Assembly: GCF_000003605.2 (NCBI RefSeq)
Contig: NW_003140812.1
Span: forward strand, 762,842 to 826,841
Direction: 5' to 3'
DNA: 64,000 bases
Source: Saccoglossus kowalevskii
Taxonomy: Eukaryota > Hemichordata > Enteropneusta > Harrimaniidae
In this document: piece after piece, positions 1,315 to 39,009 of the stretch
Position numbering within the stretch: the first letter of the stretch is position 1
How the letters are laid out: every line of letters starts with the position of its first letter
Translations under genes and position numbers: made by a program
The notes under the pieces: model-generated
What the model was told of the DNA's origin: nothing
The model's input: only the letters and a program-made list of their open reading frames with translations
Databases searched by the model: none

Positions 1315-1557
1315 CTTTATCACTGGATTCAGCATTCTCTGCGGCGTTCATCTTGTCAGTGTCTGTTTCATCAACATTCAGTGTCACCATCAGTTTTGTA
1401 TTACTCTCACATTGGACATTATTTGTGATCACGTTGGTATCCTCATCGATAGTTTGACATTTTTCAGCATTGTTGGCACCAGTCACTAATTCAATTGCAT
1501 CAGCTGATGCTCTGTTAAGATCATTGGAAACATTTCCACTACTGCTTGCATTGTCAC
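1315..1557 (-). CDS. Tandem-CARD receptor, exon 4 (acidic Asn/Ser linker)
   Basis: This exon has 243 bases (81 codons), again phase 1 at both ends, with acceptor ACTGTGCAG|GTGACA and donor GATAAAG|GTAAAT. It encodes a hydrophilic segment rich in Asn, Asp, Glu, Ser and Thr, with no predicted fold (it begins DNASSSGNVSNDL and ends NAAENAESSDK). Its composition suits the flexible tether between CARDs and helicase in RIG-I-like receptors. The open frame in lower coordinates runs into intron. The next exon is not in the window: I checked 1-1314 on the minus strand and found only repeat-like sequence. Confidence 0.6.
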
Positions 1558-1609
1558 CTGCACAGTATATACAGTCAATGTCAGTGCATTCTTATCCTCA
1601 TGTTATCCT

Positions 1610-2080
1610 CCCACTCTCACTATGATATCCCCTACCTCTCACTCCAATGTTCCCTTTCCTCACTCAGATGTCTTCTACATCTCACTCCGATGTCCCCTCC
1701 CTCTCACCCTGATGTCTCCTCCCTCTCACTCCAATGTCCCCTGCCTTTCATGTCCCTCCTTCTCACTCCAATGTCCCCTCCCTCTGACTATGATATCCCC
1801 TACCTCTCACTCCAATGTCCCCTTTCCACACTCAGATGTTCCTCCCTCTCACTCTAATGTCTTCTCCCTCTCATTCTGATGTCCTCTCACTCCGAAGTCC
1901 CCTCCCTCTCACTCCAATGCTCCTTCACTCTCACTCTGATGTCCCATTCCTCTCACTCTGATGTTCCCTCCCTCTCACTCTGATGTCCCCTCCCGCTCAC
2001 ACTGATGTCCCCTCTCACTCTGATGTCCCCTCCCTCTACCTTTGATGTCCCCTCCCTCTCACTATGATGTCCCCTACCTA
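1610..2080. repeat. CT-rich minisatellite (about 18-22 bp unit)
   Basis: Imperfect tandem copies of a pyrimidine-rich unit like CTCACTCTGATGTCCCCTCC repeat more than 20 times in the intron between exons 4 and 3 of the CARD gene. The strand asymmetry is extreme (almost no G outside GATG). Open frames across it in all phases are by-products of the repeat. Confidence 0.9.
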
Positions 2081-2351
2081 TCTCTCCATTATATATCCAC
2101 TCATTCTCACTCATTCTTTTTGCTTTTGATATCCTTATCTTCACTAGTACTTTGCAAACCCTAGCTCTCACACTGATAACTCACATACATACCATATTTT
2201 ACCATCATGCACCACGTTCACACAATTATTTCCTTACAACCCAGTTCAGATTTCAGTGCCAAATAATTACATACACTCATGTGACAGACATGATATGAAG
2301 AGTTTATATTTGTGCGGTTCCTTCTTATTACATTCATAATGCATTTCTAGC

Positions 2352-2785
2352 ATGAAAAATGATAATCAGCCAAATGTGTTATGTAATGTATGTGTAAAGT
2401 TTGAGCATGATCACTTCTGTCATGTTAGCAATATTGTTCCAAAAACAGCATTTGTTAAAATCAGACAGCCATTTAGAATAAAATCTGGGAAGAATAATGC
2501 CATGCATCAAGCACTCATTATGTTTAATGGACACACCAAATTTGAATGAAATATGTCCATGCATGATTGAGATCTGGTTTCAGAATGGAAGAAATGCTTA
2601 ATTGACAATCTTGAAACGGATCATGAAACAAATGCATGAGCATATGTATGGTATGATGCGTGTGTGAAGCATAAATGAAATCGGCCCAGGTACATGTATG
2701 TCTGAGATAGAGGTGCGAACGTACGGACGGACACATGTTATAAATCCTTGTGTTTCGAAATACATCCAATTGGGAACTAATAAAT
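2352..2785. mobile_element. Diverged copy of the GGCCATTTT/hairpin repeat family
   Basis: Its phrases match the copy at 8395-9232: an attempt at the AAACAAATGCATGAGCATATGT motif, GAAATCGGCCCAGG, TCTGAGATAGAGGTGCGAAC and an end reading GGGAACTAAT. The terminal hairpin is degenerate. It lies in the intron between exons 4 and 3. Confidence 0.45.
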
Positions 2786-2841
2786 TTGCAACACCACTGT
2801 GCTATTTATATGAGTATATCAATCATACTCAATTCATTTAC

Positions 2842-2904
2842 CTGCTATAGGATTAGACCTGCCAATCTTATCAGCAGCAGCAATACCTGCATTCAATTCT
2901 TTCT
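2842..2904 (-). CDS. Tandem-CARD receptor, exon 3 (linker micro-exon)
   Basis: This 63-base exon (21 codons, phase 1 in and out) lies between a TTCTAG acceptor and a GCAG|GTAAATG donor. It encodes an Ala- and Gly-containing linker (KELNAGIAAADKIGRSN). Phase and splice sites fit both neighbours exactly, which is the main support. No domain is visible. Vertebrate RLRs also have a low-complexity linker between the CARDs and the helicase. The acceptor is ambiguous by two bases (AG|AG), but only the outer AG keeps the frame. Confidence 0.6.
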
Positions 2905-3063
2905 CTAGAATCAATAGTAAATATTAAACATAATTAACTATAATATGATCGGTGACCTGACCTTCCTTCAATCATGCTACTTCTTTTAAACTTGGAACTG
3001 ATTTGTCAGTATGGATGACAAGATTACTTCGATCAAAAAGGTACAAATAGATATACTACTGTC

Positions 3064-3228
3064 TTAAAGCGGGAGGGTCGTCACCTGCGCACGCGCAGGA
3101 ATTGAGTCACAAGCCACGATAACAACACACGCTAAAAACACAAAGGCTCATGGGTAGACGCTTGTTTGTAAAAAGTGACACGCTATGGCCATCTGACGCA
3201 TGTGCAGGTGACGACTCCCCCGCTTTAA
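3064..3228. mobile_element. 157-bp MITE flanked by TTAA
   Basis: The inverted ends are about 24-27 bp. The left reads AGCGGGAGGGTCGTCACCTG; the right, reverse-complemented, reads AGCGGGGGAGTCGTCACCTG. TTAA stands at both sides (3064-3067 and 3225-3228). A TTAA target duplication is the hallmark of piggyBac-type transposition, so this is likely a non-autonomous piggyBac-like element. The interior is unrelated and non-coding. Confidence 0.7.
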
Positions 3229-3493
3229 GGAGGTTTGAGCCAAAATATAATATTTTTGGTAATACAAGTTGGCATTTCTCAAAATTTTTTCTCTGTGACA
3301 TAGGATGAAAAAGTCATAAATTATTGATATGCAATATAATATTGTAATATAGTTTCAAAAAATTGAAATATAATCAAGTTTCCATGGTGATACTATAGTT
3401 TTCCATTATATACAATGGGAGGTTATCTCCCATAATGCATTGCATATATGTGCAAAATTTGAATTCAGCTTGGAATACATTAACTGAACATAC

Positions 3494-3862
3494 CAGCTTT
3501 GATTTCATCATCATCATCATTGTTATCATCTGCATTGGAAGAACTGGAAGTGCCTAAAATAACATCATAAAGATGTTTAGAATCTTCTTTCAATGCAGCT
3601 AGCAATTCATCAAACCATGTTGGTCCACGCTTCACCACTCTGTAAAGCAATGTAGTAGCCGCTCTCTGAGCTCCATGTTGGTCGTAGTCATTCTTAATCT
3701 GCTGTTCATCCATTTCATTTAAACACGGGATTTTCTCACACAGAGTTCTGGCATCTATGTCTCTGACTAATGTTGGTGCCAGAGCTGATAGTAGATTTTG
3801 CTGCGGATGCATACATTTAACTTCTTTATCTCCAATCATCAGATCAGCTAAGTGTTCACAGC
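3494..3862 (-). CDS. Tandem-CARD RIG-I/MDA5-like receptor, exon 2 (CARD2 plus acidic tail)
   Basis: This exon has 369 bases (123 codons, phase 1 at both ends). The acceptor is AAGTATAG|GCTGTG and the donor AAAGCTG|GTATGT. The CARD spans roughly exon residues 17-97. The stretch LLSALAPTLVRDIDARTL resembles the start of the second CARD of vertebrate MDA5 (from memory: a Leu-rich helix, then PTLV and a charged helix). The segment WFDELLAALKED matches the Trp-containing fifth helix typical of RLR CARDs. A Ser/Asn/Asp-rich tail with a run of five Asp follows and starts the linker. The long intron between this exon and exon 1 holds most of the mobile elements of the window. This exon carries the strongest family evidence in the locus. 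I am confident of a CARD and fairly confident of the RLR class. Confidence 0.8.
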
Positions 3863-4930
3863 CTATACTTGCAAAAACAAATGAAAACTATTAATGCTAT
3901 ACAAGTAATGAAGTATCATCAAGATTGCAACTCTATATACGATGATATGCAGAGCTGAACTTCACAGTTGAGAAAAACACCAATTTTCAAGACCAAAGAT
4001 TCATAAAACGGCTTTAGCACATAGGAAGAACATAGCGAATATCAAAGAGCCCAATTAAGTCACTGTGAAGATCAAGGATCCTGGATATGCAATGAAGACC
4101 CTATTCTGCATGCAATTCACTTTTCTATTTTTTATATATAAATTAGGTTTTATTTAACACATTTCTAACAAAAAGCATCACAGAATGCAGTGGAACATCC
4201 CCAGCTTTGTGTCTTTCACTGTAGAGATCTTACAAAGAAGGTTTATACACAGCAATTTATCAGTTGGAAAATACTATTATCCCTGGAACAATTATGCTAC
4301 GGATGTAGTGGGTTAAATAATTATGACGCAAGAACACAGTGATTCTATATGACTTGCTACTTATTTGAAAGAATCATGAAATAAATAGTCGCTCAATTAT
4401 GAACCGTAGTTTTATGTATTTTGACAAAAGGTCAATTCAAAATGGCTACAAATGAAGGCTGTTACGTACGCTTTAGAAAAAGAAGTGTTTCCATCAAAAC
4501 AAGTTCCATTACCTCCTCTCTTTATTTTTTCTTTAACCTTTTCACAACTAGACTTTCATGCCCAAATTTTTCTGCACTTTTTTCTTATATTCTTCAATAT
4601 TTCTAGAAATGAACCCAAATTTTTGAGCCAAAAGACGAAAGTTAAGCTTATTTTCAGTTTTTACTCAAAAAATTTGCCTATTTTTGTCCCAATCTTCTGA
4701 AAGAAAGAGCAGACTATAAACATAGACCAAAAAGAGGGAACTGGTGGTGAAAAGGTTAATGAACCCCTTGTTTTTAATTTTTAATAGTTCCACATTTTGA
4801 TATGTATGCACCACAGGATGATTCGGCTGAAGATATTGTTTTGTCTTGGTTGTTTCTGACTTGTATTCAGTTTTTCTTCTGCTGTTTTTTTCTTCGTTTG
4901 TTAAATCAGGGAGGTGTGCAAGTGTTATTT
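3863..4930. other. Intron 1, unique AT-rich part
   Basis: No gene or clear repeat was recognised. Open frames near 4420-4700 are short, T-rich and have no similarity that I recognise. Confidence 0.5.
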
Positions 4931-4934
4931 AATA

Positions 4935-5015
4935 ACAAGCAGCCTGTCGGCTGAGATAGCTCCGCTGTTAGCAAGGCACATTTCAATTAAAGAACTGAAG
5001 ATATCATTAGATTAA
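4935..5015. repeat. Isolated terminal piece of the 157-bp-array element
   Basis: This block (GCAGCCTGTCGGCTGAGATA, then GCTCCGCTGTTAGC, ending near GATATCATTAG) recurs at 9988-10063. There it forms the left end of an element carrying 157-bp units. Here the array itself is absent. Confidence 0.6.
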
Positions 5016-5339
5016 AGAAAGCTTAGAAAGAACTCCTGTGTGCTGAGAGAGTATTGGAGACACATTAAAATTAATTCAACATTTATGATTTGCTTTTCAA
5101 GCGAGAAGCTTGGCAACTAATTTTTGTCTGCTATTTGAGATGCATAACATGAAAAAAATTTGATTCACATTATCAAAATTTATAATACATACAGAAAATA
5201 CATTTGATTTTTCATCCATGGTTTTTAGTCTAATTTATTCCAGAGCATCTCTGCAATGAATTCAATTTAAATCTGATTTTTTTTAGATGGGCTAATAATA
5301 GATAATCAAGATGCATGTTTATCAACATTAAACTAAACA

Positions 5340-6545
5340 TGTCTGTGGATTACCTCAATGAACCAAATGAATTATTATACAAATTAAGCAATTATTATGC
5401 ATAGATTTAGGTCTGTATATTGTTTCAGGGTGCACATGTAACAAAGTTTTATTATAATGTGATGATTAATCCTAACTAAATTAGTGGAAAGCTGAAAAGT
5501 AAATTATTATGCAAATTAGGTAATTATTTATAGATGTGTACATAAATCTAAAACTAATTTGATCATCACATTGTGTTAGAGTACATATGTACCAAGATTC
5601 ATTGAATTAAGATAAGTACTGTCACAGATCATCATTTTGAAATGTGATTATAACCAAAAATTATGATTTATTATGCAAATTAGGTAATTAATATGATCTG
5701 ATTTTAATTCAAAACTGAGAGGATCTGCACATTGTTCTGAAGCATCAATGTACCAAGTTTCATTGAAATGGAATAATTAGCACATTGTGAAAATCATTGT
5801 AAAAGCTGAAAATTGGCTAATTATGCAAATTAGGTAATTAATATGAACTGATTTTAATCCAAAACTCAACAGGTCTGTGCATTGCCCTGGAAAAGCTATG
5901 TACCATGATTCATTGAAATGGGATAATTAGTAACTAATTATGCAAATTAGTTGATTAATATGCACACATTTTTACTTAAAATTAATCAGGTCTTTGGATT
6001 GTTCTAGAGCATCTATGTACCAAGTTTCATTGAAAAGTAATGAAGTAATAGTACTTGAAATATCAAAAGCTGCAAATTTATTAATTATGCAAATAAGGTA
6101 ATTAATATTTCACATATCTGTCTGTTCATCGTCCTATGTACCTATGTAAGTTTCATTGAAATGTGATTATTAGTACCTGAGATATCAGTGCAAAAGGCGA
6201 AAATTTACTAATCATTATGCAAATTAGGTTAATTATATGCATGGATTTTACCCAAAACTGATCACATCTGTACATTAGTCCAGAGCATCTATGTACCAAG
6301 TTTCATCAAAATCTAATGAATGGCTCTTTAGATATCAGTGGAACAGTCAAAGAACAGCTAAAAATTACCTAATTATCATGCAAAACAGGTAATTAATATG
6401 CATGGATTTCAACCAAAACCTAATCAAATCTGTGCATTAGCCCAGAGCATCTATACACCAAGTTTCATTAAAAACCAACATACGGTTCTTGAGATATCAG
6501 TTGGACGGACAGACACACACACATACACACACACACACATACAGG
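5340..6545. repeat. Diverged tandem array, 120-160 bp unit, ending in an AC microsatellite
   Basis: About eight units each contain TTATGCAAATTAGGTAATTA (near 5507, 5665, 5820, 5939, 6085, 6215, 6380) followed by ATGTACCAAGTTTCATTGAA. The last unit runs into GGACGGACAGACACACACAC and a short CA microsatellite (6510-6541). An internal array plus a terminal microsatellite resembles Helentron-associated elements such as the bivalve Pearl family. Copies differ a lot, so the array is old. Confidence 0.7.
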
Positions 6546-6569
6546 GTAACTGCAAAGACTCCCATTGTG

Positions 6570-7423
6570 TATAGTACATGTATAGTACCCAAAAATGAAA
6601 AAAAATATTCATCAAAATTAGAGAATTGAAGATATCATCACAAAATGAACAAATCTGAGAGAGGTCCACATGTAGTACCTACGTATGTAATATCTAAGCA
6701 ATCGGACTTGTAGTTTTTAACAAGAAGTCGAAAATATCACTTTTTACCAAAAATGACAAAAATATTCATCAAAATTAGAGAAATGTAGATATCATCACGA
6801 AATGAACAAATCTGAGAGAAGTCCATATGTAGTACCTATATATATAATAGCAAAGCAATCAGACTTACGGTTTTCAACAAGAAGTCGAAAATATCACTTT
6901 TTACCAAAAACTACAAAAATATTCACCAAAATAAGAGAATTAAAGATATCATCACAAAATGAACAAATCTGAGAGAGGTCCACATGTAGTACCTATATAT
7001 GTAATATCAAAGCAATCGGACTGCGGTTTTTTAACAAGAAGTCAAAAATGTCACTTTTTTCAAAAATGACAAAAATATTCACCAAAATTAGAGAATTGAG
7101 GATATCATCACAAAATGAACAAATCTGAGAAAGTTTCACATGTAGTATCTATATATGTAATATCAAAGCAATTGGACTTTTGGTTTTTAACAAGAAGTTG
7201 AAAATATCACTTTTTACCAAAAATTACAAAAATATTCATCAAAATTAGAGAATTTAAGATATCATCACAAAATGAACAAATCTGAGAAAGGTCCACATGT
7301 AGCATCTATATATGTAATATCAAAGCAATTGGACTTGCGGTTTTTAACAAGAAGTCCAAAATATCACTTTTTACCAAAAATGACAAAAATATTCACCAAA
7401 ATTAGAGAATTAAGAATATCATC
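6570..7423. repeat. 157-bp tandem array, five to six copies
   Basis: The phrase AAATCTGAGAGAGGTCCACA (with variants) starts at 6651, 6808, 6965, 7121 and 7278, giving a period of 156-157 bases. Each unit also holds ATCACTTTTTACCAAAAA and CAATCGGACTTG. The array stops abruptly at about 7423, where the MITE at 7428 begins. Further copies lie at 10060-10700. Confidence 0.9.
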
Positions 7424-7425
7424 AC

Positions 7426-8313
7426 TATAAACAAAACTATATATCTTGAATTTGATAACTAATGGGGACTGTGCCATGCATGGCTTGTTTCATTGTGTTT
7501 TGCTCAACTGAAAATGCCTAAAACTAGATACATATTGGGAAATTAAATGTTAATTTAGTTAAATTGATCAAGAAAAAGTTCATAAAAATTGGCAATAAGT
7601 CATGTTAGGATCCAAAACAGGATAATATTTGTAGATTCTATGTGTACATAAATAGTACTAATGTTTTTCATGATGCCAAGTCAATAGTTTGTACAGTATA
7701 TGTATACATAAATTATACTTCATTGTGACATGATTCTAACATAAATGTCATGATATTGTATATATGTATATGTAAATTATACAATATTTAGGCATTTAAT
7801 CCTTTGCGAAAAATCTGTACATTTCTAGCATACAACAAATATACATTAATGGTTTTGCGTAAAGTGTGTATACAAATAATGTACTGTTGTTGACTTGTAT
7901 AAATAAAATGTACACAATTTCAAAAAAGTATACTTTTTTGTACAGAATATGTATACAATTAATATACTATTGAGACATACAATTTGGTGAAGGTTGGCTG
8001 ATCACATGTTTACTATGCCATGCCTTAGTTTTGTTGGAGAGTATGTATGATTTTGTTTAGGTAAACAGTGAGGTGTTACCTCAGCTGACCGTTTTGAGGA
8101 ATACAGCTAGACTATCTGTAATGAACTAATGTGTAATGTTTTGTTATCTGTACATGTTATCTGCCAAGTGAGTCAAAGTTCCCTACACACTACGTTCCTT
8201 TGGATGCATAATCTAGTTTTGGCATTTTCAGTTGAGCAAAACACAATGAAACAAGCCATGTATGGCACAGTCCCTGTTAGTTATCAAATTTAAGATATAT
8301 AGTTTTGTTTATA
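7426..8313. mobile_element. 884-bp MITE with about 100-bp inverted ends and TA target site
   Basis: The ends at 7428-7530 and 8208-8311 are inverted copies with only a few mismatches. The outermost 20 bases read TAAACAAAACTATATATCTT. TA stands on both sides, as in Tc1/mariner insertions. The interior has no coding capacity and contains several copies of a GTATACATAAATTATAC word. A non-autonomous mariner-type or foldback element is the likely class. The near identity of the ends suggests a fairly recent insertion. Confidence 0.8.
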
Positions 8314-8394
8314 GTAATATAGCTGGAATATAACCATGTCAGGAATATGATTATGATGATTGTTTAACATTAAAATGATTGACATTTGTATCAG

Positions 8395-9232
8395 ATCGTC
8401 AAACAAGTACTTGTCCATATTGAGAGATATTGCTCTGGAACAGCATTAATTAAAACAAAATCAGCCATTTTGAATACATGTATATATCTATAACATGATG
8501 TATAACGAATATATAAAATTTGAACATAATCAGTCAAAGCATGTCAGAGATATGGCTCTAGAAGCCTAATCATTAAAACAAAATGGCCGCCAGTCAGCCA
8601 TTTTGAATCCGACCTGAAAAATAAAATGATGTGCATCAGGAACCCGTAATGTCCAAATGTATGTACTAAGTTTGAATGAAATCCATTCATAAATGCCAGA
8701 AATGCTTGATATTTGATGATTTTTTATCACAAAAATGGCCACCATTCGGCCATTTTGAATGGGACTGTCAAACCAATATATCTGTATATCTATGACATGA
8801 TGTATAATAAATATTAAAAATTTGAACATAATCAGTCAAAGCAAGTCAGAAATATGGGTCTAGAAGCCCATTCATTAAAACAAGATGGCCGCCAGTCAGC
8901 CATTTTGAATCCGATCTGAAAAATAAAATTGTTTGCATCAAGGTCCCATAATGTCTAATGTATATACCAAGTTTGAACAAAATCCATATGTAACCAGCGG
9001 AGAAATGATTTTGATGATTTTTTAGCACAAAAATGGCCGCCATTCCGCCATCTTGAATCAGATCGTGAAACAAATTGATGTGCATTTGTATAATATCATG
9101 TATGATGTATGTGTGATTATGATTCGTCCAGGCATTTCTAAGATACAGGTCCGGACGCACGCACGGAAGCACGGAAGCACAAGGGTCAAAACATAAGTCC
9201 CCGTTTTCGGACTGCGTCCGAACAGGGACTAA
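8395..9232. mobile_element. Helentron-like element with 150-bp units, each holding a GGCCATTTT palindrome
   Basis: Palindromic cores (AAAATGGCCGCC...GGCCATTTTGAAT) occur at 8580, 8732, 8880 and 9031, a spacing of about 150. Alternate copies are more alike (CAGTCAGCC against CATTCGGCC or CATTCCGCC), so the true unit is a 300-bp dimer. The element ends with GGACGCACGCACGGAAGCAC and a hairpin at 9201-9232 (AGTCCCCGTT and AACAGGGACT), then AAT. Assignment to Helitron/Helentron derivatives rests on structure only. Confidence 0.65.
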
Positions 9233-9438
9233 TAAATCAATATTCCTCTCACCACAATCAGTTTGTTGTACATACTTGGCTGACATATAAGTCAAACACA
9301 TACAATATAGGGTTTAATGAATGAATAGTCAATCAGTCAGGTAAGCATAAACAATTAATAAATTTGATTTGGGGCGTGTGTATCTGCCTGTTTTTATACC
9401 AAGGTCATGATTGCTTATCCTGAATTTTTGTTTAATAT

Positions 9439-9950
9439 TTATAACATATTGTTCATAACAAAATCTTCCTGAAATTTTAAGTATGTACGTAATTTGCTAT
9501 CATCTTTCATAATGTTTGATCGCCAATGATCAGTGTATTTTTGTTTCATTTGACATTTCACTTTGTTAATGAAATTTTTAGATTTTGATTCTAAGATTGT
9601 TTCCTCTGTATCATACAGTGAGTTGATTTATTTCTGTCAACATGCCTTTTATTGTTGGCATTCAAATATTACTATTATGTTGATTTTTTTGTTCATTGTA
9701 TGCCCATTTTGTTATATTGTCTTCTGGAAGTTCCCGTAGTCTTGACCATTGCTAGCATACTTGTTCAGTCCAGGAATTCTTTTACAGTATTTAAGATGTA
9801 TTTTTTCAATAGCACCTCTATCCCATTTTGTGAAATCAATTATCTCTGAACCCCAGATTTCTGCACCATATAACAATATTGGTTTGATAATGGAATTAAA
9901 TAACTTGATAAATTTTATGAATTGAGCTTTGTACAATTTTTGGTATATAA
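9439..9950 (-). pseudogene. Decayed non-LTR retrotransposon, C-terminal end of reverse transcriptase ORF
   Basis: A minus-strand frame contains FNSIIKPILLYGAEIWGSE followed by IEKIHLKYCKRIPGLNK. This is the segment just after the catalytic core in many jockey/CR1-like non-LTR reverse transcriptases (KPxLLYGxExWG, then IExxxLKxCKxxLGxN). The same frame continues past several stop codons to TDHWRSNIMKDDSKLRTYLK and ends at a stop at 9439, matching the usual WHSQ-SSKLRTY-like tail. It therefore seems collinear but inactivated by point mutations. The catalytic YxDD part is missing. The element is not functional. Confidence 0.75.
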
Positions 9951-9987
9951 AAGTGTTCCAAATATGGGATACTTATTGTATAGACAT

Positions 9988-10795
9988 GCAGCCTGTCGAT
10001 TGAGATAGCTCTGCTGTTAGTAATGCACATTTCAATTAAAGAACTGAAGATATCATTAGAAAATGAATAATATGTATAGTATCAAAGCAATCGGACTTGC
10101 TGTTTTCAACAAGAAATCGAAAATATCACTTTTTACCAAAAATGACAAAAATATTCATCAAAATTAGATAATTGAAGATATCATCACGAAATGAACAAAT
10201 CTGAGAGAGATCTACCTGAGGTACCTATACATGTATGTATAGTATTAAAACAATCAGACTTGTGGTTTTTAACAAGAAGTCGAAAATATCACTTTTTACC
10301 AAAAATTACAAAAATATTTATTAAAATTAGAGAATTGAAGCTATCATCACGAAATGAACAAATCTGAGAGAGGTCCACATTTAGTACCTATATATGTAAT
10401 ACAATGTATCGTAGCAATTGGACTTGTTTATATCAGTTGTTGTTTTGCGGGATTAGTGGGACAAGGGGAAAGATAAGCATTCATTTACTTAGTGGACAGA
10501 GTAAGAGTTAATTACCCATGAACACTTGGTGCAATCCATGGGATTGAGCGGTTCCCCTTTAACAAGAAGTCAAAAATATCACTTTTTACCAAAAATGACA
10601 ATAATATTCATCAAAAATGAACAAATCTGAAAGAGGTCTGCCCAAGGTACATACATGTATACACCAAGTATCAAAGGAGTAACAATTGTAGTTTTCAAGA
10701 AGAAGTCGAAAAAGAAAACATTGACGCGGACAATGACGGACAGTCACTCATATGATAAGCTCCGCTAGACAAAGTCGACAGCAGAGCTAAAAAGT
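9988..10795. mobile_element. Element carrying 157-bp units, with short inverted ends
   Basis: The left end (GAGATAGCTCTGCTGTTAGT near 10000-10020) and the right end (CGACAGCAGAGCTAA near 10777-10791) share the inverted 12-mer TAGCTCTGCTGT. Between them lie three diverged copies of the 157-bp unit and, at about 10435-10560, an unrelated insert. The right part reads GACGCGGACAATGACGGACA. This links the satellite-like array at 6570-7423 to a mobile element. Confidence 0.65.
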
Positions 10796-11901
10796 CCATT
10801 TTTGTACACTATTTGTATAGTATTTGTATACAAATCTGTTCCAAATATAGGATACTTCTTGTATACAAAGATTTTTACATAAAATATACAAATTCATTCA
10901 GACGTATACTTTTTGCACGCAAATAGTATACATCTAGAATGGCTACAGCTGCTGGTAGGATCACGTAATTAACAGGGCTGTGTCTCACAGTTAAAGGCCC
11001 AGGTATACTATACCGGTAAATACGCTTCTAAACATTAGAGATTATTTCCTTGAAAGTCACGCTGAAGTAAACAGCTCCAGCCAAGCCCCGGTAAAGATGC
11101 GTTTTCTCAAACTTACAGGTTGATTATGTCATGTCAAAGTGGATGTATGTGTCTATGAATATCACAGCAGTGATTATATATAGTATTTATGACAATAAAT
11201 AGTGTACAAGTTCAGATTTGTCGGATAAATGTCAAAAACACAAACTGGAAAAAGGGATACAACTACTAATAATGTCACATGACGTTGGGCCGCTGAAATA
11301 GGTTGGACTCTAATCTCCAAAAACATTTACACAGTTCCTAATGCTTTTATCATTATCACATAGCGGATTCAACGAAGACAATGAAAATCGTGTTTGCAAA
11401 TTTAAAAAGTTGCCACAGAGAGTACGAGCCAGAAATATCCCTATATATAGTCATGTTTTTATATGAATACAGTGTTTAGTATCGTTTACTGTTACTTTTA
11501 CTTGGTGATGAAGAGCGTATTCCGGAAATAGCGCAGCATATGACGGTAAATGGAACAGCAATGAGACTCGGACTGGATGATCTTCAGAGTTTCCGATGAC
11601 GAACCAAAAATTTTTTTTAAAACGTTACATGTGACTCAGTACGAATTAATTTACTGGCTTCTTCGTTTCTTTTATACTGGTGTTCAGGAAAATGGCAAAT
11701 TCATGCCGTAACTGTGTGCCTACACTAGAAAATGTACACTAGTCGGCATCTAGCAGTTTTATTTTGTGTTACAAGTGACTGTGATCAGTCATAAGGTTTT
11801 CGTACGCAGTGATGCATCGTCTCAAATTTATTATCTTTACTATTGCCACGTATCAGTAACAGCATTTATGCGAGTGAAAGTGTGAACACCGTGCAGTGAA
11901 T
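10796..11901. other. Intron 1 between the array element and the LTR element
   Basis: At 10800-10935 is a patch of GTATACAAA-type words similar to the interior of the MITE at 7428-8311. No gene is seen in 10936-11901. There are no long open frames. Confidence 0.5.
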
Positions 11902-12529
11902 TATCAGGGGGGAAATCTTCTCTTCTGGGGTTCTCCACACTTGCCAGGGGGGAATCTCGTCTCGTCTCTCTATCGCGTCCCCTTGAGGTACGGGATCGGG
12001 AAAGTCACTTAAACTTTACCGTCAAATAAGACACACACAACGAAATACGGTTCAACGTTCGTGTTAGTCGGTCAGTCGAGCACTCTATAAGACGCAGCGC
12101 CCTGGGGAAAAGTCCCCAAGACTATCTAGACTCTCCTAGACTGCGTCTCTCATGGAGTTCTCTCTCTCTCCCACTCCCACTCTGAGACCAACGACTTAGA
12201 CTATTTATTACTTATTAAAAACTTAACCAATTACAAAGCAGTTTAAACACTGTAAGGCGTGGCCTTCAATCATACAGCCAATCACACTAAGTACTGAACA
12301 CGTCATATCTTTTGATTAATCGTTCACTACATTAATAACTACGAATATCAAACTTTCAGAATTAGTAGTCCGAATAGCGACGGTTATCTCGTAATTAGTT
12401 CCAAATCACTGAGTCAAGTTCTGTCCAGAACTTCAAATAGGTCGAAACGATGACAGACATAACACAGCCATTCGCTAGTAATCAACTAAATAAGTCAGTC
12501 AACAGATACGCAAAAACAAATTCATCACA
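11902..12529 (-). repeat. 3' LTR of the non-autonomous element
   Basis: This is collinear with 14027-14648 apart from a 6-base insertion (an extra CCCACT) near 12170. In element orientation it starts at 12529 with TGTGATG and ends near 11902. Confidence 0.7.
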
Positions 12530-13749
12530 CATCCCTTCACTCAAACTGAGCCATGCCTCCCGCATAACACGTTATACGGGTTAAATACAGTACTAATAAA
12601 AAGGTATAAATCAAAAAGAGTAAAACACACTGATTAAGAACTGATTATAAAGTCACAAATATCAACGGTTATAAATAAAAAAACAAGGGAAAGGCTACCA
12701 ATCGACTCACTTTTCTCAAACAGTTCGCTGAGGTAACCCTTCGCTGCACTGTCTCTCGTTACTAAGGTTACAAACTCTACATCAAAAGGTAAAAAAAAAC
12801 TAAGGTGTGGCGGTGTAACCAAGCGATCAGCCAATCGCTGCAGTCGACAGCCTGATCACGTGATTACCAGGGATGCGTCTCTCGGTTAAAGCATTGCAAA
12901 GCCGTAACTAATAAACAATGAATAAACAAGCTATTAATCAAACTCCTGTCATATACGCTTATAAACTTCAACTGAACTCACAAGTCGTTAATCTAAACAA
13001 AAGTCAAACGGCGTGGAAACGAAATGCAAAGACAAAGCTATCATAACACATTACTCCTCTGGCAAAAAAGACGGGGAAAAGCAAAAACGATAGACACTAC
13101 TAAGTTACATGTAATTCTGTCAATCATGAACAAAAGCTTGCGTTATCAAACAATAAGTATATAAGCGCACCACACTCTCATCTCGAAAAGACATTAAAAA
13201 ACGTTACAAAGGTGCTCTCAACTCAAATCAACTCAAAAAGCATCAGAAGTATTCCGGAAACAACACGTAAACTAAAACAACTCTTAAAACGTTGATATCT
13301 CTGTACTCGACAAATCTCAAAACTCTTAAAAACATGTGGGGGCATCATTCCTCCCATCATATTCCGTACTCATAAACTCATTAAATCATAAAACTTCACA
13401 AAACTCAAAACACTGTGTTGCAAATACTTGTCCACTGAGGCGCGCTTAAATCGTTATAAAGGACCTCGCACGTCACTAAATATCATTTCAAAAAAAGATC
13501 TGGGCGCTTACATAACATACAATTCAACATCACAAAAAAACGGTAAAAACGATAGGAAAAGCAAGCAAGAAATATGTTACATACTGAACAATAGTGTTGG
13601 GATTCTGGAAAAGAGTTCAACGTCTTGAGTTACACAGTGTCAGTTACAGTGTCCAGCGAGCAGTTCTCTAAGCAATACACAGATAGCTAAAGTTCTAATT
13701 CAAAGTCTATATAGCGTCTCTTCTCTTTTCGTCGCGTTAGTACAGGTCG

Positions 13750-13920
13750 TTATTTCATCATCTTGTCTTTAATGTCGCTCAATTCTTGATTATTCAGTTC
13801 TATTCGATACTCGTCCTTCCGAAGGGGCTCCGAAGTCTTCATCTCTTCAGCGTTGTTCATCGGTGTCATCCGGGTAAAGTCGTTAGTCGTCAAGCGCAGT
13901 TTCCGAGTCGTCTCTGCCAT
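13750..13920 (-). CDS. Small ORF of the LTR element, gag-position remnant
   Basis: This 56-codon ORF has a true ATG at 13920, about 106 bases inside the 5' LTR, where gag normally starts. The product is highly charged (Lys, Arg, Glu, Asp) with no zinc knuckle and no recognisable domain; it ends NQELSDIKDKMMK. It could be the first part of a lost gag or simply chance. Position is the only argument. Confidence 0.3.
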   Translation of the reverse strand: MAETTRKLRLTTNDFTRMTPMNNAEEMKTSEPLRKDEYRIELNNQELSDIKDKMMK

Positions 13921-14026
13921 CGAGCTGTTAGTTCGGTTCGCAAGAAAGACACACCTTCGCCATTTCACTTTTCTTCACAGGATCTCAATGTGTGTTAAAC
14001 ACCTGCCCAGGGTTCTCCACTCACGT

Positions 14027-14648
14027 ATCACGGGGAATCTCTTTCTCTCTGAGGGTTCTCCACACTTGCCAGGGGGGAATCTCGTCTCGTCTCTCTATCG
14101 CGTCCCCTTGAGGTACGGGATCGGGAAAGTCACTTAAACTTTACAGTCAAATAAGACACACACAACAAAATACGGTTCAACGTTCGTATTAGTCAGTCAG
14201 TCGAGCACTCTATAAGACGCAGCGCCCTGGGGAAAAGTCCCCAAGACTATCTAGACTCTCCTAGACTGCGTCTCTCGTGGAGTTCTCTCTCTCTCCCACT
14301 CTGAGACCAACGACTTAGACTGTTTATTACTTATTAAAAACTTAACCAATTACAAAGCAGTTTAAACACTGTAAGGTGTGGCCTTCAATCATACAGCCAA
14401 TCACACTAAGTACTGAACACGTCATATCTTTTGATTAATCGTTCACTACATTAATAACTATGAATATCAAACTGTCAGAATTAGTAGTCCGAATAGCGAC
14501 GGTTATCTCGTAATTAGTTCCAAATCACTGAGTCAAGTTCCGTCCAGAACTTCAAATAGGCCGAAACGATGACAGACATAACACAGCCATTCGCTAGTAA
14601 TCAACTAAATAAGTCAGTCAACAGATACGCAAAAAGAAATTCATCACA
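14027..14648 (-). repeat. 5' LTR of the non-autonomous element
   Basis: This is the upstream copy in element orientation, starting TGTGATGAAT at 14648. A CTTATAGAG word near 14210-14220 and an AATAAA word in the same repeat could serve as TATA and polyadenylation signals, but the roles are not assigned. Confidence 0.7.
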
Positions 14649-15543
14649 GAATATTTTTTTATTGTTGACCGTAGCGAGCTTGACAGTGTCTTAAGCATAT
14701 GTTCATCGTGGTCATCGCCATGGAATCGTAGTTCAACGATGCGAAGGTGGCAAATAGATATGATATGTTATTCTGCATTTCAGATGAACACTATTATTGA
14801 AATAAACGTAATTCAAAGAAATGGTCAATGCCACATCACTTTGTAACACATTCATTACGGAATGCCTAGTATGCAGCTCTGGTTTGTACTCTATGGAAGC
14901 AAGTCTGACTGACCTGTTATATACATTGATGCTTATGGGTATTAGTGCTATGAACTTGTAAATAAACTACAAATTTTTGTAAACATAGACTATGCAAGTG
15001 ATTAAGAGGACTAGATCATTAGCATAGCCACACCTCCAATAAATACTTGCCGGGGGGGGGGGGGTGAATTGTGAAGCATTGCATTTGTGAAGTTGCCACT
15101 ACTGAATACAATCAGTAAACAATCTATTCATAAAATTCCTGGAATACATGTTTATAATGTTTACTTTAAACATGCAAGTTGTTGATCCTAAATAATACTG
15201 CAACGTCATTATCCAAACGTCTGTACGCGATGTCACTACGGTAACAATTACGAAGTGATCTCGACGTGGTACACATTACAAAGGTGTCCCACCACAGACA
15301 ACTCCATCTGATGCAAACAGCTGTTAACAGAATATGCGCATAAGTGTACTCTGTTGATACCAAAGACTACATCGTACCCTGCCCCCCTCTCTACATTCGA
15401 CTCACGTTTCGGTATTTTTTAAAAGGAAAACCACATTGCGATTTGAGGAATCGTGAGCTACAGAACTGCAGCTATATAATGCTATACTATATAAATACAT
15501 TATACTGAAACTTGGAAAATAATGGAAAAAAATGATACGATAC
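14649..15543. other. Intron 1, part next to exon 1
   Basis: No gene was recognised. A G homopolymer lies at about 15051-15064. There are no repeats shared with the rest of the window that I can see. Confidence 0.5.
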
Positions 15544-15814
15544 CTTGCGTATTTTTTAAAGCGTTCATAAATTCAGCAAACGCCCCCTGTTCATCACTAT
15601 CAATGATACACTGAAGTAAAATTTCAGTCGCTTTTTGATCGTTGTGTTGGTCTTGTGCATTTTGAATACGTTGTTTCTCGCCGCTGGTTAGACAGGTCAG
15701 GTGCGGGAGAATGTTATCCGGGGACAGATCGTCGACAAGCCTACAGGCGAAAACTTCAATCAATTTTTTGTCGTTGTGGCGTTGTTGCGTAGGTTCTCCG
15801 CCGTTCAGAGCCAT
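15544..15814 (-). CDS. Tandem-CARD RIG-I/MDA5-like receptor, coding exon 1 (CARD1)
   Basis: This is the first coding exon of a putative cytosolic RNA sensor, 90 codons plus one base. In the family, CARDs pass the signal from RNA-bound receptor to the mitochondrial adaptor MAVS by CARD-CARD contact. I chose the ATG at 15814 because it has a strong context (G at -3, G at +4); the frame is open upstream to a TTG only. Residues about 13-88 form a death-fold-like pattern of amphipathic helices (KKLIEVFACRLVDDL, then NILPHL, GEKQRIQ, ATEILLQCI, AFAEFMNAL). The exon ends at CAAG|GTATCG, phase 1, and joins the next CARD exon in frame (G plus GC gives Gly). CARD1 and CARD2 each sit on one exon, as expected from exon duplication. 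A helicase was not seen; it would lie beyond the left edge. A MAVS-like or other tandem-CARD adaptor is the alternative. Confidence 0.75.
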
Positions 15815-16100
15815 GTCTGTGTTGTCCGTGTCTAAATGTCCACGTAATAAGTACCGATCGTACAAGTATATCTTGTACAGGCCGAGTGACGCAACTTTAC
15901 CTGGAAAACGGGGGAGTTTTTCATTCTAAGAATAACCGGGGAATCCCAACGTGACAGAACGTCTATAACGCAATTGTTTATTGGTCAAAATTTAGGACGT
16001 TCGATCGGTTGTCCAATCAGATAGATGGACACAAACAATAACGCTAAAGGCCGATGACGTCAGTGTGTCGACCCTGGCACGTATTTACCCGGTTACATGC
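15815..16100 (-). promoter_or_regulatory. Promoter and 5' UTR region of the tandem-CARD gene
   Basis: This GC-richer block lies upstream of the start codon of the CARD gene. It holds a perfect kB-type decamer GGGGAATCCC at 15938-15947, about 124 bases upstream of the ATG. A minus-strand CCAAT lies near 15979-15983, a plus-strand CCAATCAG at 16013-16020, and a perfect CRE-type TGACGTCA at 16057-16064. NF-kB control is a known feature of innate immune sensor genes; whether these sites are bound here is inference. No TATA box was chosen with confidence. Confidence 0.5.
15938..15947. promoter_or_regulatory. Perfect NF-kB/Rel consensus site
   Basis: The decamer GGGGAATCCC fits GGGRNNYYCC at all constrained positions. 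It lies close to the start of the tandem-CARD gene, as in known Rel-controlled immune genes. A decamer of this degeneracy can occur by chance, so position is the main support. Confidence 0.45.
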
Positions 16101-23299: not shown

Positions 23300-24349
23300 T
23301 TATTTCTTATATTTGTCCTTTGAGAGCAGCTTGCTACTTCGACCGCGGCTTTCGCGGTGAGAGTAGCCCGTCACTGGGGTGGCGGATGGATTCGCACTGG
23401 CGGAGCGTATACCACTAGACTGATGAGATGTCTTCTGTCTAAGCATAGTCCAATCAAAGGTGTAGTCGTATTGAAAGTTCAAAGTGCGAAACAGGATACG
23501 AAATAACTGACGCAGATACATATAATCGGGTGACTCTTCAAACTTCAACCCACGGCAGTAGTTTAGATACATCGCGAACTCGGCAGGAAATCCTTTGCAT
23601 AGCACTTCAACGGGGGTAGACGCCTTTTTCTCACTAATTTTTTCGTATTTCTGTTTCTTTGTAGTTGCTTTCAACCCTTGCCATGGAAGTGAAGTCCTAT
23701 TAAAATACATCAGAACGTAACCAAGGGACTCCATGTCGTCTCGTCGACTCTGCTCAACGCCAACATGAGCGTGTATACTCGCATACCTCGCCGTGCCGGT
23801 CAGGTTTTTGTCCTCTCTATACGGAATGTGCTGCCTTGTGCGGCTATCGCGATATTTTTTGGCCAGTCCGAAATCTATTAAATACAGTTGATTGCAGTGT
23901 CTGCCAATACCCATGAGAAAATTGTCGGGTTTTATGTCTCTGTGTATAAAGCTTCTATTGTGCACGTACTCAACACGGTTGATCAGCTGGTCGGCTAACA
24001 TCAGCACTGTTTTCATTGTAAAGCGGCGCGAACAGAAATTAAACAAATCCTCCAAACTCGGTCCCAACAAATCCATCACCAAGACGTTGAAATCTTTTTC
24101 CTGGCCATACCAGCGAATATGAGGCACTCCTACGCCACCTTGGAGTATTTTATATATCTTACTTTCATATAATAATTGCGGATGTCTGGCTTTCTGTGAC
24201 TCGAGCTTTACGCCGACTTCTTCGCCATTCGTACTGTTGACACCCAAGTAAATGTCGCCGAACGATCCACTGCCGATCTTGCGTACCAATTTGTACTTTC
24301 CACCGACTATGAACTCTCCGTTCGATTTTGACCCCATAAGACTAGACAT
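23300..24349 (-). CDS. CSNK1A1-like: Casein kinase 1 alpha, intronless
   Basis: This Ser/Thr kinase of the CK1 family has 349 residues and one exon. CK1 alpha primes beta-catenin and Ci/Gli for degradation and acts in the cytosol and nucleus. The ATP loop GSGSFGDIY lies at residues 26-34, the catalytic Lys at 48, HRDIKPDN at 136-143 and DFG at 159-161. The body matches vertebrate CK1 alpha closely ([44 protein letters not shown]). Oddities: VAVK is VGVK around the catalytic Lys, and the CK1 signature SIN is SIH. The C-terminal tail (about residue 310 on) is basic and Ser-rich, unlike the vertebrate tail. The frame is intact. Metazoan CK1 alpha genes normally have introns, so this is probably a retained retrogene; no poly(A) trace or target duplication remains. 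Length and start fit the family. Confidence 0.93.
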
Positions 24350-27300
24350 GATGGCTCGGCTGTGATTTGAAAAGTAACAAAAACACTATAGAAGCCAGTG
24401 GACGTCGTTGCTTTGCCGACTACTTTATAAAATGTGACACACGGAAAATATCATCTGCGCATGTCACATGTCTGCATAAATTTGCATATTTATTTTTTTG
24501 ATTTTTTGCTCGATTGTACAATGGAACAAAGAAATATTTACAGAAAAAAAAAACAATTAATTAGTAAATAGGTTTTAGTATTTAGTAAATGCATGTTAGG
24601 TGCAAAGGTGAGTAAACCACGGTTACTGGTAACCGTGGGTATACACACTGTAAACGTGTTCGACACTAATTGTATATGTCAGGGGAATCTCGAAACTAAC
24701 ACAATCAGCTGGCGTGCAAATGATAGGCAAATTATAAATGCGGCTTATTTACCGATATACTGTATATTAACTAATCATCATCAAATTCAGGGCCAATCAG
24801 CGACGGCCGATAAATTCTGTTTCAAATACCCCGGGAAAGTGTTCTCGCTTGGCATTAAAATGGCTTTTTTTGTTTTTCTGCAGGGGGAGGGGTATTCGAA
24901 CAAAAAAATTGTGGCAAAACTTTTGGAGTAAGGAGTGTATGTTTTTACTGTATAATCAAGTTAATTTTTTGTCATTTCTGGAATAGTTACGTTTACTACT
25001 AAGGGTTGAATCCTATTTTACATGTCTGTCTGTGCTAGTGACACACACAGAATAATTATAATACTCGTATCAGTTTTATGTTATATTCGATCAGGGAGCT
25101 GTATAGAAATCAAGAACATTTTCCTGGCGGCGATGATCATACGGGACAAAGGAATCGTACACAATGGTTTTATAAGGGATTACAGTCTTTAAAACAAAGG
25201 GCGTTAACTGGTATTAGAATTGGTCCAGTCTGCTTCTCATTACAGCTCCCTGGTGCGATTAACTATCATGATACAAACTTGTTATTTCGTGAATGTATGC
25301 AGAATAATTACACTGTCTGACCATGAGGGCTGGAGCATTTTCTTGATAATTTACTCTCCTACAAGATACAGGAGTGCGTTGTTGTCTGAAATAGGCCAGT
25401 TTAAGGGCGGAAGTACAGATATTTATTTATTTATGCTAAATCACGATTCAACGACCCGTCAGTCACTCAAAAGATCACCGACAGTGCCACAAACATGTGT
25501 GAAAATACAGTGCGTTAGAAAATTGTGTACCATGCCAGACTCAGAGTAAAGTCACTATTCATATAATTAACCGAAATCTGTCAACTGAAAACCAAGTCGT
25601 TCTGCGAACGTGTAAATGATCTTATGATTTGATGATCGAACGGACCTAAAAGAAAGCCACCGTGATATATTATTGACGAATAAAACGAAGTATGCAAAGA
25701 AAAAGGGAATCAACTGGAATGTGAAATGGAGGACGTAAAAGGCTGAATGATGCGCGATAAATTACTTCTTTTTTGAGTGATCGAAGGAGGAATCTGGGAA
25801 GCCACAACCTCAACGTTTAAATACAACAACATGGAGACGACCAAATCTCATCTAAATAATGTTTCAGACACAATTGCGTTGACAAAAGTGACCCTACACA
25901 AGGCTATATTATAGTATAGCATATTTTATTTGACACAAAATAATGCATGGAAAATACATCATCTATGGCCTTTATATATAATGCGATATGAAAACCAACG
26001 GTCAAGTCAAGTCGCTAACGTTAAAATTTGTCATGTGACGGAGACCGTAGAAAATATGACGCACGACGTACACCAGTGTGAGTGTGGTTAAGTGACACCT
26101 AAATTCATCAGTGAGAGGCCGTCGGAGGGGTGTTTGGCATGATTTCACCTAGAGCATCCGTTAAGTTTCCATCTTGTACCCTAATTTCTGAGGTTCAGTT
26201 GACAAAACTGGAATTCAATCGATGACGCCTTTAAATGGAGACCTTGACGCAACCCATTTTGACAGTATTATAACGGTTTCTATGACAGACATATTATGCC
26301 AGATCTCAAATTGTAATCTGGTGACATAAGCTGAAAAATTATATATAATGTATGGTGTGTACTTTTTGTTGTACTTTTTGTTTTGTTTTAAAAAGTGTCA
26401 AAAATGCAATTTTTCTTTATCATTGTGCGCTATGGAATTGTTCTAAAAATAGCAATTTTTGAAAAATATTAGGACAAGTTTTTTAAAATACCAAAAATGC
26501 TATTTCAAGTTGCGATGGAACATTAGCTTCATAATTTTACATAATAAACAAATGAACATTGTCATGCGATTTATGGCCAACTTTTTCAAAAGATTATGAG
26601 CAGGTTTCTACCTTAATGTACAACCTCAGTTTTGTTATACCTCTATATATAGGGACTGTACATATACATTATATATAGTATGCTTTCATTGTCCGCATTT
26701 CGTCGGTCGCCGTTACAAATTATACTATACTGATTACACAGGAAATGTTTTATTAAAAATAAAAATCGAAAAAAAAATCGGGCGTTAGTTATAGCTATTT
26801 CCGTTTAAACACTATATCTGAATCATTAAACTTAGAAGGCAGCGACTTCGAAGTTATTAGAGCCCATCGCTCGCGCGAACAAACGCCCTCAGCCGTTCGT
26901 CGGGACAAAACATTGCAGCAAGCGAGAAAGTTATTGAAGGAAACCAATGTATGTGTCTCCTAGCAGTTTACACCTAAAGTATGAGAAGCGAAAGAAACTC
27001 GTCACAAGAAAGCAAGAGACGATGGTAAAGATGGTAAACGAGCCTTAAAAGGAAGCAGAGGTCTCTGCCTAATATCACATCCCTGTGAGTCGTTTGAATT
27101 ATTTTTAGACTTGTCTTTTGACTTTTTTTTTTTCAATTTCCAACTGACATGTATGTGATCTCTTGTAATAGTTTATCTTTTTCCGTGCAATCCCCTTCAG
27201 GCCCTGAGCTAAAATTATTCATTTACACACAGTTTAATTACAGGGCATATAATTTGTCAAATTCTACTATATTTGTACAACTTATCTCCTCCCAACCGCA

Positions 27301-29996: not shown

Positions 29997-30876
29997 ATGG
30001 GCACGTTTGAAGGCCATGCACTTCCTGGTAGTTTCTTCCTCGCCTTTGGCGTCTGGTGGTGCATGAAATATTCGTACCGTCTTATTCGTAAGAATTCTAA
30101 TGTTTCCCGGCAGAAAAATGGTTCGACTCCCAACAACAAATGGGGAAGACGACTCGGAAAATGCCATGGATTATCCGCGGAGCTTGTGGAAGGAATCGTC
30201 GTTGTTATGTTCACTATTGCTGGCTTTATTCTCCGAACAATCTTGGCCGTATAAAAAATGGGCAATGTTTGACAAGAATGACCCCGGCAGACGTTTTGTT
30301 CATTCCGCTGAATGGCAACACTGCACAATGTACACGTTCTTTGGAGTTGCAGGGGCGGTGCAGATATTAGCGCGTACTTGTGTGTGTGGGTTGAAAGAAT
30401 TCGAAAAATTCTTCCTTGCGCTAGCTTATTTCGTGGAGGGCTTGCTGTTTTATTTCCACGTTCATGGCCGGACACCTCTGGACATATCCGTGCACTACAT
30501 GCTAGTTATCGCAGTAATGTTGGCCGCCGCTGTCACAGTTGCCGAGATTTGGAAAGGCGATGACCCACTTCTACCGTTCATTCGGACCGGCCTAACCATC
30601 ACGCAAGGTACGTGGTTTTGGCAAGTCGGCTTTATGCTGTACCCACCGAACGGCGTTCAGTGGGACGAAGATAGTCACTCTAATATCATGTTCGTAACAA
30701 TGGCGTTCTGTTGGCACATCGTGGCCTGTATACTCGTGATGGCAGGCGTTTATGGCATTGTGTCTCTCTGTCTGCGCTCCAAAGGAGTCTACCTTGTCCC
30801 GTACAAACAGGTTGAGGATGAATACCAGGTTGGATTAATGAGCTTGGATGATAAAGGATCAAGCGATAATGAATAA
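29997..30876 (+). pseudogene. TMEM45B-like: TMEM45-like multi-pass membrane protein, intronless, one apparent frameshift
   Basis: The product belongs to the TMEM45/DUF716 family of multi-pass membrane proteins with no settled function. The start ATG at 29997 (context AAAATGG) opens with MGTFEGHALPGSFFLAFG, nearly the family hallmark. The first frame runs through TM2 (EGIVVVMFTIAGFI) and stops at 30254. The other frame then supplies SEQSWPY, EWQHCTMYTFFGVAGA, EGLLFYFHVHGRTPLD, TQGTWFWQVGFMLYPPNG and MFVTMAFCWH, and ends at 30876. The match between frames is seamless if one base near 30231 is skipped. Total length would be about 292 residues, like vertebrate members (about 275). Everything else is intact, so a sequencing or assembly error is as likely as a dead gene. 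Vertebrate TMEM45 genes have introns; this one has none, so it is a retrocopy or lost its introns. An AATAAA lies near 30990. Confidence 0.85.
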
Positions 30877-37456: not shown

Positions 37457-39009
37457 TCTACTCTTTGTAACCCTATTACCAACAAGAATTTTAGACACAT
37501 GGCCAACGAAATGTTCACACAAGTGATTATAAAATTAATTTAATACCTTACTACCCCATTTTCACAAGATCAACCATTTTGGTTGTCATATGATAATTAT
37601 GTAATCACAGTCCTGTTGCCGGAACTTGTTCTCCTTTCGAAGCATAATTACACCGAATTTTGAGTGGGACAACAGACAGAGAAATATTTATTCAGAAGCG
37701 CAGTCATATGTCAGATATGCAAAATTGTCGACGTAATCTTTATTGAAAAATTTGTCGTGAAAATAGTATCAACAATTATTATTTGGACACGAAACTGATT
37801 GTTGTATCCCAGCAATAGTCCTTGCTCATTTTGTGATTCAAACTGAAGGCATTATGAAAAACTGAAAAACAAACAAACATTGAATACTGATAAACTGAAC
37901 CGTTCTTACGCAATTTGCATTTCTGAAATACGTGACGTAACACCGACACATAGACACGTGTCATTCAGAATAAATTGTATTGATTATTCAATAAATACTC
38001 GAGTGATAGGTTATAGTCCTCTTAGTGCGGGCAAGACAGGCAGATCACTATTGTCATAAGTACAATTGTATGTGAAACACTGGTCCCGATACAAGTTACA
38101 GGCGCCAAATCATTAATTTAACTCAGAGGTTTCTTCGGAATCGATTACTCTCTGAATTCGGCCATGTGATATTTAGTTACTTGATACTGACAGTAGTTGT
38201 TATCGAAAGTGCTGTTTTTCGAAATAGATAAAAAAAATATTTTATCGTTATCCTCAATGGCGATTTCTTGCATACTATTTGGCCGGTTTCTCGAAATATG
38301 ACTTTGCACAGCAAAAAATAATGTTTTTCATTGCCATTGTGCAGTTACAGTTACAGGTACAATTTAAACATTACATAACGTCGAGTGATATTTAAGTACT
38401 AGTAGGCTCCCTAACTTAAACACTCAGTCGTGTGCTGCCGTAGAAGGGTCATTGTCCCAAACATCTAGCTATCTCGAAGGGTTATTTAGGACACCAATTA
38501 CCAAATACTGCCTAGTAGTTATTTAACTTTAATCGATGTATCTTTTGACATTTAAAAAAATCATTTGCCACTGCAATTCCAACAACTTATTGCCGTGTGT
38601 ATTAACCCTTGTTCGTGAGCAATTTTTGAAAATTTTAGAGCTGTTTCAAACCAGAGCCGAAATTATTGTCAACAATTCTGTGTGTGAACGTTCTTATTTG
38701 ACGGTTAGAAGTTTAACGCTGACGGGGAATGAACGGAATTGTTTGCCTTCTCTCCAGTGTATTCGATTTTGTATTTATGACGAGAATTGAAAATTGTCCA
38801 TTTTCTAGATTTTTAGCACACTTTAAGGTTTTGCTGTTGCCACAACCATCGGATAATTCTTTCACATACGTTTCACACCAATAACATATCATTTCAGGGT
38901 TGTGCATGGACTTTCTCAGACGGAAAAAAGAAATTAAACAAGTGTTATTTATACAATCTATATATTTCGAAGTTACTAATATATCTGTTACATATCGCAT
39001 ACGAACAAT

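Follow-up and report, generated by a model that had tools for sequence, protein, structure and literature searches.

A predicted RIG-I-like receptor gene with two CARDs in the hemichordate Saccoglossus kowalevskii

Neighbouring exons that each encode a caspase recruitment domain (CARD) may mark the beginning of an RNA receptor or belong to a different signalling protein, and this is the question raised by a locus in the 572-Mb genome of the hemichordate Saccoglossus kowalevskii. The locus lies at the left end of a stretch of 64,000 nucleotides, C3161:762842-826841, on a contig of 1.4 Mb (C3161, i.e. NW_003140812.1); the whole stretch is referred to as the window. A first-pass annotation had proposed a gene of the RIG-I/MDA5 type with a helicase off the left edge, and had suggested a leftward search for the helicase and the RIG-I C-terminal domain. 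We added 49 kb of DNA left of the window and read the minus strand there for further exons; exons 5-11 of the resulting splice model encode both parts, in frame with exon 4. According to this model the whole gene comprises 11 exons on the minus strand and encodes 1,011 amino acids without an internal stop in the joined frame, exon 11 ending with the stop codon TAA. This confirms that the window holds the 5' part, about the first third, of a predicted complete gene for a RIG-I-like receptor (RLR), with the rest directly to its left. The parts of the gene are as follows.

Window 15544..15814, minus strand: exon 1, start codon and CARD1, residues 1-91, leaves in phase 1 (splice model, CARD_2 match)
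Window 3863..15543, minus strand: intron 1, 11,681 bp, with tandem repeats of 157-163 bp and of 117 bp (splice model, repeat search)
Window 3494..3862, minus strand: exon 2, CARD2 and the beginning of an acidic linker, residues 91-214, phase 1-1 (splice model, CARD_2 match)
Window 2842..2904, minus strand: exon 3, short linker exon, residues 214-235, phase 1-1 (splice model, codon use)
Window 1315..1557, minus strand: exon 4, linker, residues 235-316, phase 1-1, with exon 5 beyond the window edge (splice model, codon use)
C3161:761338-760943, minus strand: exon 5, helicase exon (splice model)
C3161:760756-760563, minus strand: exon 6 (splice model)
C3161:759536-759284, minus strand: exon 7 (splice model)
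C3161:758769-758578, minus strand: exon 8 (splice model)
C3161:758194-757944, minus strand: exon 9 (splice model)
C3161:757363-757052, minus strand: exon 10 (splice model)
C3161:755866-755375, minus strand: exon 11, ends with TAA (splice model)

The start codon of exon 1 is the first in-frame ATG downstream of a stop. Exons 1-4 have the donors GTATCG, GTATGT, GTAAAT and GTAAAT, the acceptors of exons 2, 3 and 4 end with TATAG, TCTAG and TGCAG, and the three introns between them (11,681, 589 and 1,284 bp) are all of the GT-AG type and in phase 1, so that the four exons with matching splice sites and one common frame were described correctly from the start. Exon 4 leaves through a phase-1 donor, and the phase-1 acceptor of exon 5 lies 2,817 bp further on. 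The earlier statement that every intron is in phase 1 holds for the junctions of the four exons in the window, but not for the whole gene, where phase 1 is found in seven of the ten introns (1-5, 7 and 8) and phase 0 in introns 6, 9 and 10. Two further elements lie inside the introns: a tandem repeat of 22/44/168 bp at window 1614-2087, in intron 3 between exons 3 and 4, and, on the minus strand at window 9712-9972, inside intron 1, a short frame that by eye resembles the tail of a reverse transcriptase (IIKPILLYGAEIWG) and has no Pfam match.

The joined protein has the order CARD1, CARD2, acidic/Ser-rich linker, DEAD helicase domain 1, RIG-I_C, helicase domain 2 and RIG-I_C-RD. In the Pfam search CARD_2 matches two stretches with a total of 107.9 bits, and the open frames of exon 1 (57.9 bits, E 1.1e-15) and exon 2 (57.0 bits, E 2.1e-15) each contain one CARD with a score well beyond chance expectation, just as the first reading of one CARD per exon had it. 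ResIII (84.4 bits) and DEAD (80.5 bits) follow at residues ~325-495, RIG-I_C (PF18119, 116.8 bits) lies between the helicase domains at residues 541-670, Helicase_C (76.2 bits) spans residues 686-799 and RIG-I_C-RD (PF11648, 108.0 bits) residues 880-993. The helicase motifs APTGSGKT, DECH, TAS and QARGRAR are intact, and we take them to serve the ATPase and helicase functions; the C-terminal domain carries two C-x2-C pairs (cysteines 883, 886, 937 and 940), which presumably bind zinc. Hence the domains and motifs that characterize a two-CARD RLR are present, i.e. two N-terminal CARDs, a DExD/H helicase, RIG-I_C inserted between the helicase domains, and RIG-I_C-RD with its cysteine pairs.

The linker between CARD2 and the helicase is largely contributed by exons 3 and 4. 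No Pfam family scored above the cut-off in the exon 4 frame, and exon 3, scanned within the joined protein only, lies in no Pfam domain. Codon use nevertheless looks coding-like in both: with a score trained on the remaining nine exons, exons 3 and 4 being held out, the value of exon 3 was equalled or exceeded in 51 of 4,922 controls, i.e. open stretches of the same length, and that of exon 4 in none of 276. These controls were taken from intron 1 and from window 17000-64000, with both strands used; they overlap and are hence not independent draws, and the control DNA includes some real genes.

Taken as a whole, the predicted protein is almost certainly encoded by a complete RLR gene. In a phmmer search against the PDB, MDA5 is the best match (580 bits, E 8.6e-173) in one colinear alignment covering residues 16-993, followed by LGP2 (563 bits) and RIG-I (421 bits), and the C-terminal third alone gives the same order (261, 235 and 170 bits). 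By these pairwise scores alone, which do not establish orthology to vertebrate MDA5, the receptor appears closer to MDA5/LGP2 than to RIG-I. With MDA5 (IFIH1) it shares the arrangement CARD-CARD-helicase-RIG-I_C-RD, although its CARDs resemble those of MDA5 weakly. Its helicase and C-terminal domain score against LGP2 (DHX58) nearly as high as against MDA5, but LGP2 lacks CARDs whereas this gene encodes two (PMC5557890). RIG-I (DDX58) has the same architecture and a lower whole-protein score, and a different locus of the same genome, on contig C2797, has a C-terminal part that is more RIG-I-like. In architecture, oyster CgRIG-I-1 and the canonical V1-type lophotrochozoan RLRs are also alike, with two CARDs, the helicase and RIG-I_C-RD in an invertebrate protein (PMC5557890, PMC8998645). 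The best overall explanation, which we regard as very probable, is that the window contains the 5' part of a complete RLR gene most like MDA5/LGP2, encoding an RNA sensor that would signal via a CARD adaptor.

A genome search with RIG-I_C-RD gave five rows, one in this gene, one on C2797 and three on C2922, corresponding to three further loci, i.e. C2797 and two on C2922. The C-terminal part at C2797:61453-61782 scores 114.8 bits with two chains named 'RNA helicase', 113.9 with RIG-I and 82.0 with MDA5, and that of the C2922 locus near 687 kb 147.5 bits with MDA5, 128.9 with LGP2 and 111.8 with RIG-I. The other C2922 domain, near 677 kb, is matched by two RIG-I_C-RD rows in different frames; it might be a damaged copy or contain an intron. 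C2922:669263-687628 comprises two adjoining RLR-like sets, each with one CARD_2 place and then RIG-I_C-RD; their CARD_2 exons, read by eye, leave in phase 1, and the order suggests that each CARD_2 exon forms one gene with the downstream RIG-I_C-RD. At C1466:119765-122244 a stretch of 2.5 kb has four CARD_2 rows, of which, by eye, two read as whole 1-1 exons and one as a half-CARD exon, and the fourth contains a stop. Both whole exons begin like exon 2 of the RLR gene (G-x-x-x-L/V-A-D/E), and among the matches listed in the genome profile search C1466 has no RIG-I_C-RD row, so a multi-CARD adaptor is possible there.

MDA5 binds double-stranded RNA, assembles on it and recruits MAVS via its CARDs. 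By analogy with MDA5 and with the RLR pathway of the oyster, the S. kowalevskii protein would act in the cytosol, where its helicase and C-terminal domain would bind double-stranded RNA of viruses; the receptor would assemble on the RNA and bring its two CARDs together, and the tandem CARDs would recruit a MAVS-like CARD adaptor, which would turn on NF-kB/IRF signalling. The gene product is probably a sensor of this kind that acts through a CARD adaptor. The oyster has a RIG-I/MAVS pathway, in which the two-CARD protein CgRIG-I-1 binds poly(I:C) and contacts CgMAVS via its CARDs (PMC5557890).

In the genome-wide CARD_2 profile search, which scores the best candidates only, exons 1 and 2 take the top two ranks among the 14 CARD_2 places listed. 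PF00619, the generic CARD model, has 13 listed matches across the genome and none of them in the window, so that CARD_2, the RLR-type model, was needed to detect this gene. A profile of eight CARD sequences from this genome, both CARDs of the gene included, finds the CARDs of RIG-I and MDA5 first in the PDB, with those of MAVS and APAF-1 next at similar E-values. AlphaFold2 models from single sequences have a mean predicted local distance difference test score of 74 for CARD1 (exon 1), with five helices, and of 63 for CARD2 (exon 2), and lend mild support to RLR-type CARDs.

Several observations weigh against an MDA5/LGP2-like receptor or against parts of its gene model. The support from the CARD models is only mild because the top Foldseek matches, RIG-I CARDs for CARD1 and RIG-I tandem CARDs for CARD2, all have E-values of at least 0.11 and 0.057, respectively. 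Searched alone against the PDB, CARD1 finds RIG-I first (best E 2.8e-5) and MDA5 with 1.5e-4, and CARD2 reaches a best E of 0.5 with MAVS first; orthology was not deduced from these single-CARD matches. Intron 7 requires a GC-AG donor. In PMC8998645 lophotrochozoan RLRs show no divergence into RIG-I, MDA5 and LGP2, and in PMC2686710 the RLR homologues of invertebrates are nearer RIG-I, so that neither paper would expect an MDA5-like gene outside the vertebrates. Finally, the following promoter motif counts as weak evidence.

Window 15938..15947, strand not assigned (matches on both strands): NF-kB-like decamer GGGGAATCCC / GGGATTCCCC, 124 bp upstream of the start codon (motif search)

The NF-kB-like motif is not significant, with four rows (three places) in the window versus 1.32 expected and seven of 100 shuffles reaching four, and GAAANNGAAA has six matches in the window versus 4.88 expected, none of them near the start codon. 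Both promoter motifs were rejected as support.

How the two CARDs arose is a separate matter. The first-pass annotation inferred that every CARD had been copied or shuffled in the form of a symmetrical exon, which is borne out only in part: exon 2 is 1-1, but exon 1 begins at the start codon and thus lacks a phase-1 boundary at its 5' end. That both CARDs go back to a symmetrical phase-1 CARD exon, duplicated in tandem or shuffled, is conceivable but rather doubtful. The two CARDs do align with each other (E 1e-9), two CARD_2 exons on C1466 likewise read 1-1, and a phase-1 exit is seen in all eight CARD_2 exon ends read among the 14 places listed, two taken from the splice model and six read by eye with other possible donors in some. 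Yet just 24 of the 83 aligned residues (29%) are identical, so any duplication of CARD1/CARD2 must be old and a recent one is not shown. Moreover, a CARD_2 exon on C4092 starts within the domain and in phase 0 (read by eye), the shared phase may descend from one old intron, and published work favours separate histories of RLR CARD1 and CARD2 (PMC8998645, PMC2686710). Among the titles listed by searches of the open-licence literature no publication on the intron phase of RLR CARD exons was found, and the word 'phase' is absent from the main text of PMC8998645 and PMC2686710. We speculate, and consider it improbable at present, that RLR-type CARDs are phase-1 exon modules in this genome, that the cluster on C1466, built from exons of this same type, may encode an adaptor or decoy with several CARDs, and that the MDA5/LGP2-like and RIG-I-like receptors split before this animal and the vertebrates did. 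The last point would follow from the presence of both receptor types in one genome and would stand against the lophotrochozoan tree (PMC8998645).

Given that introns 1-5 are all in phase 1, exons 2, 3 or 4 can be skipped without loss of the frame, and a phase-1 5' half of this kind makes gain, loss and skipping of exons easy. The gene might thus be a true two-CARD RLR with several isoforms, having one CARD or a short linker, in which exons 2, 3 and 4 are skipped singly or together. One-CARD RLRs do exist, such as the cnidarian C type (PMC8998645), and both RLR-like sets on C2922 have one CARD_2 exon before the RIG-I_C-RD, linked by order only. We consider such isoforms unlikely; against them, all four exons in the window look coding.

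The alternative kept in the first-pass annotation, a novel tandem-CARD adaptor that has no helicase and stops behind the linker, is very improbable. It draws on the fact that the four exons in the window stop short of any helicase and on the short protein that would result if the donor of exon 4 were read through. On the same strand, however, exons for the helicase, RIG-I_C, Helicase_C and RIG-I_C-RD follow, the phases of exons 4 and 5 match across 2,817 bp, and the frame continues to the stop codon, which argues for a full RLR and leaves the adaptor unsupported. A pseudogene or an assembly chimera, as might be suspected from the 11.7-kb first intron with its repeats and from stretches of N in other parts of the window, is hardly credible for 11 exons with a joined frame free of internal stops, with retained helicase motifs and C-terminal cysteine pairs, and all on one 1.4-Mb contig.

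The remainder of the window contains other features. At window 23300-24385, on the minus strand, lies an intronless protein kinase frame of 361 amino acids (Pfam Pkinase), possibly a retrogene, which we take to be of the casein kinase 1 type. A DUF716 protein in a single frame (Pfam), presumably TMEM45-like, is found on the plus strand at window 30067-30876, and a frame that looks similar to it, by eye only, flanks the RLR gene on the opposite side (C3161:751262-750336, minus strand). Pieces of a Rhodopsin-type G-protein-coupled receptor (Pfam 7tm_1) occupy two overlapping frames at window 49357-50135, plus strand, separated by an intron or a frame break, and a repeat with a ELRTSSYEHRVTNI-like unit, open in three listed frames, is found at window 38885-39838, plus strand. 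On another contig, C4830, the genome carries COX1 with seven in-frame TGA codons.

Two-CARD RLRs have already been published for lophotrochozoans (PMC8998645), and existing knowledge of RLRs is unchanged by this gene. The locus illustrates that a gene extending past the window edge can be predicted from splice phases read in the raw sequence. For S. kowalevskii it provides a complete gene model of a putative two-CARD RNA sensor and, for the family, one more data point on the joining of CARDs to RLR helicases.

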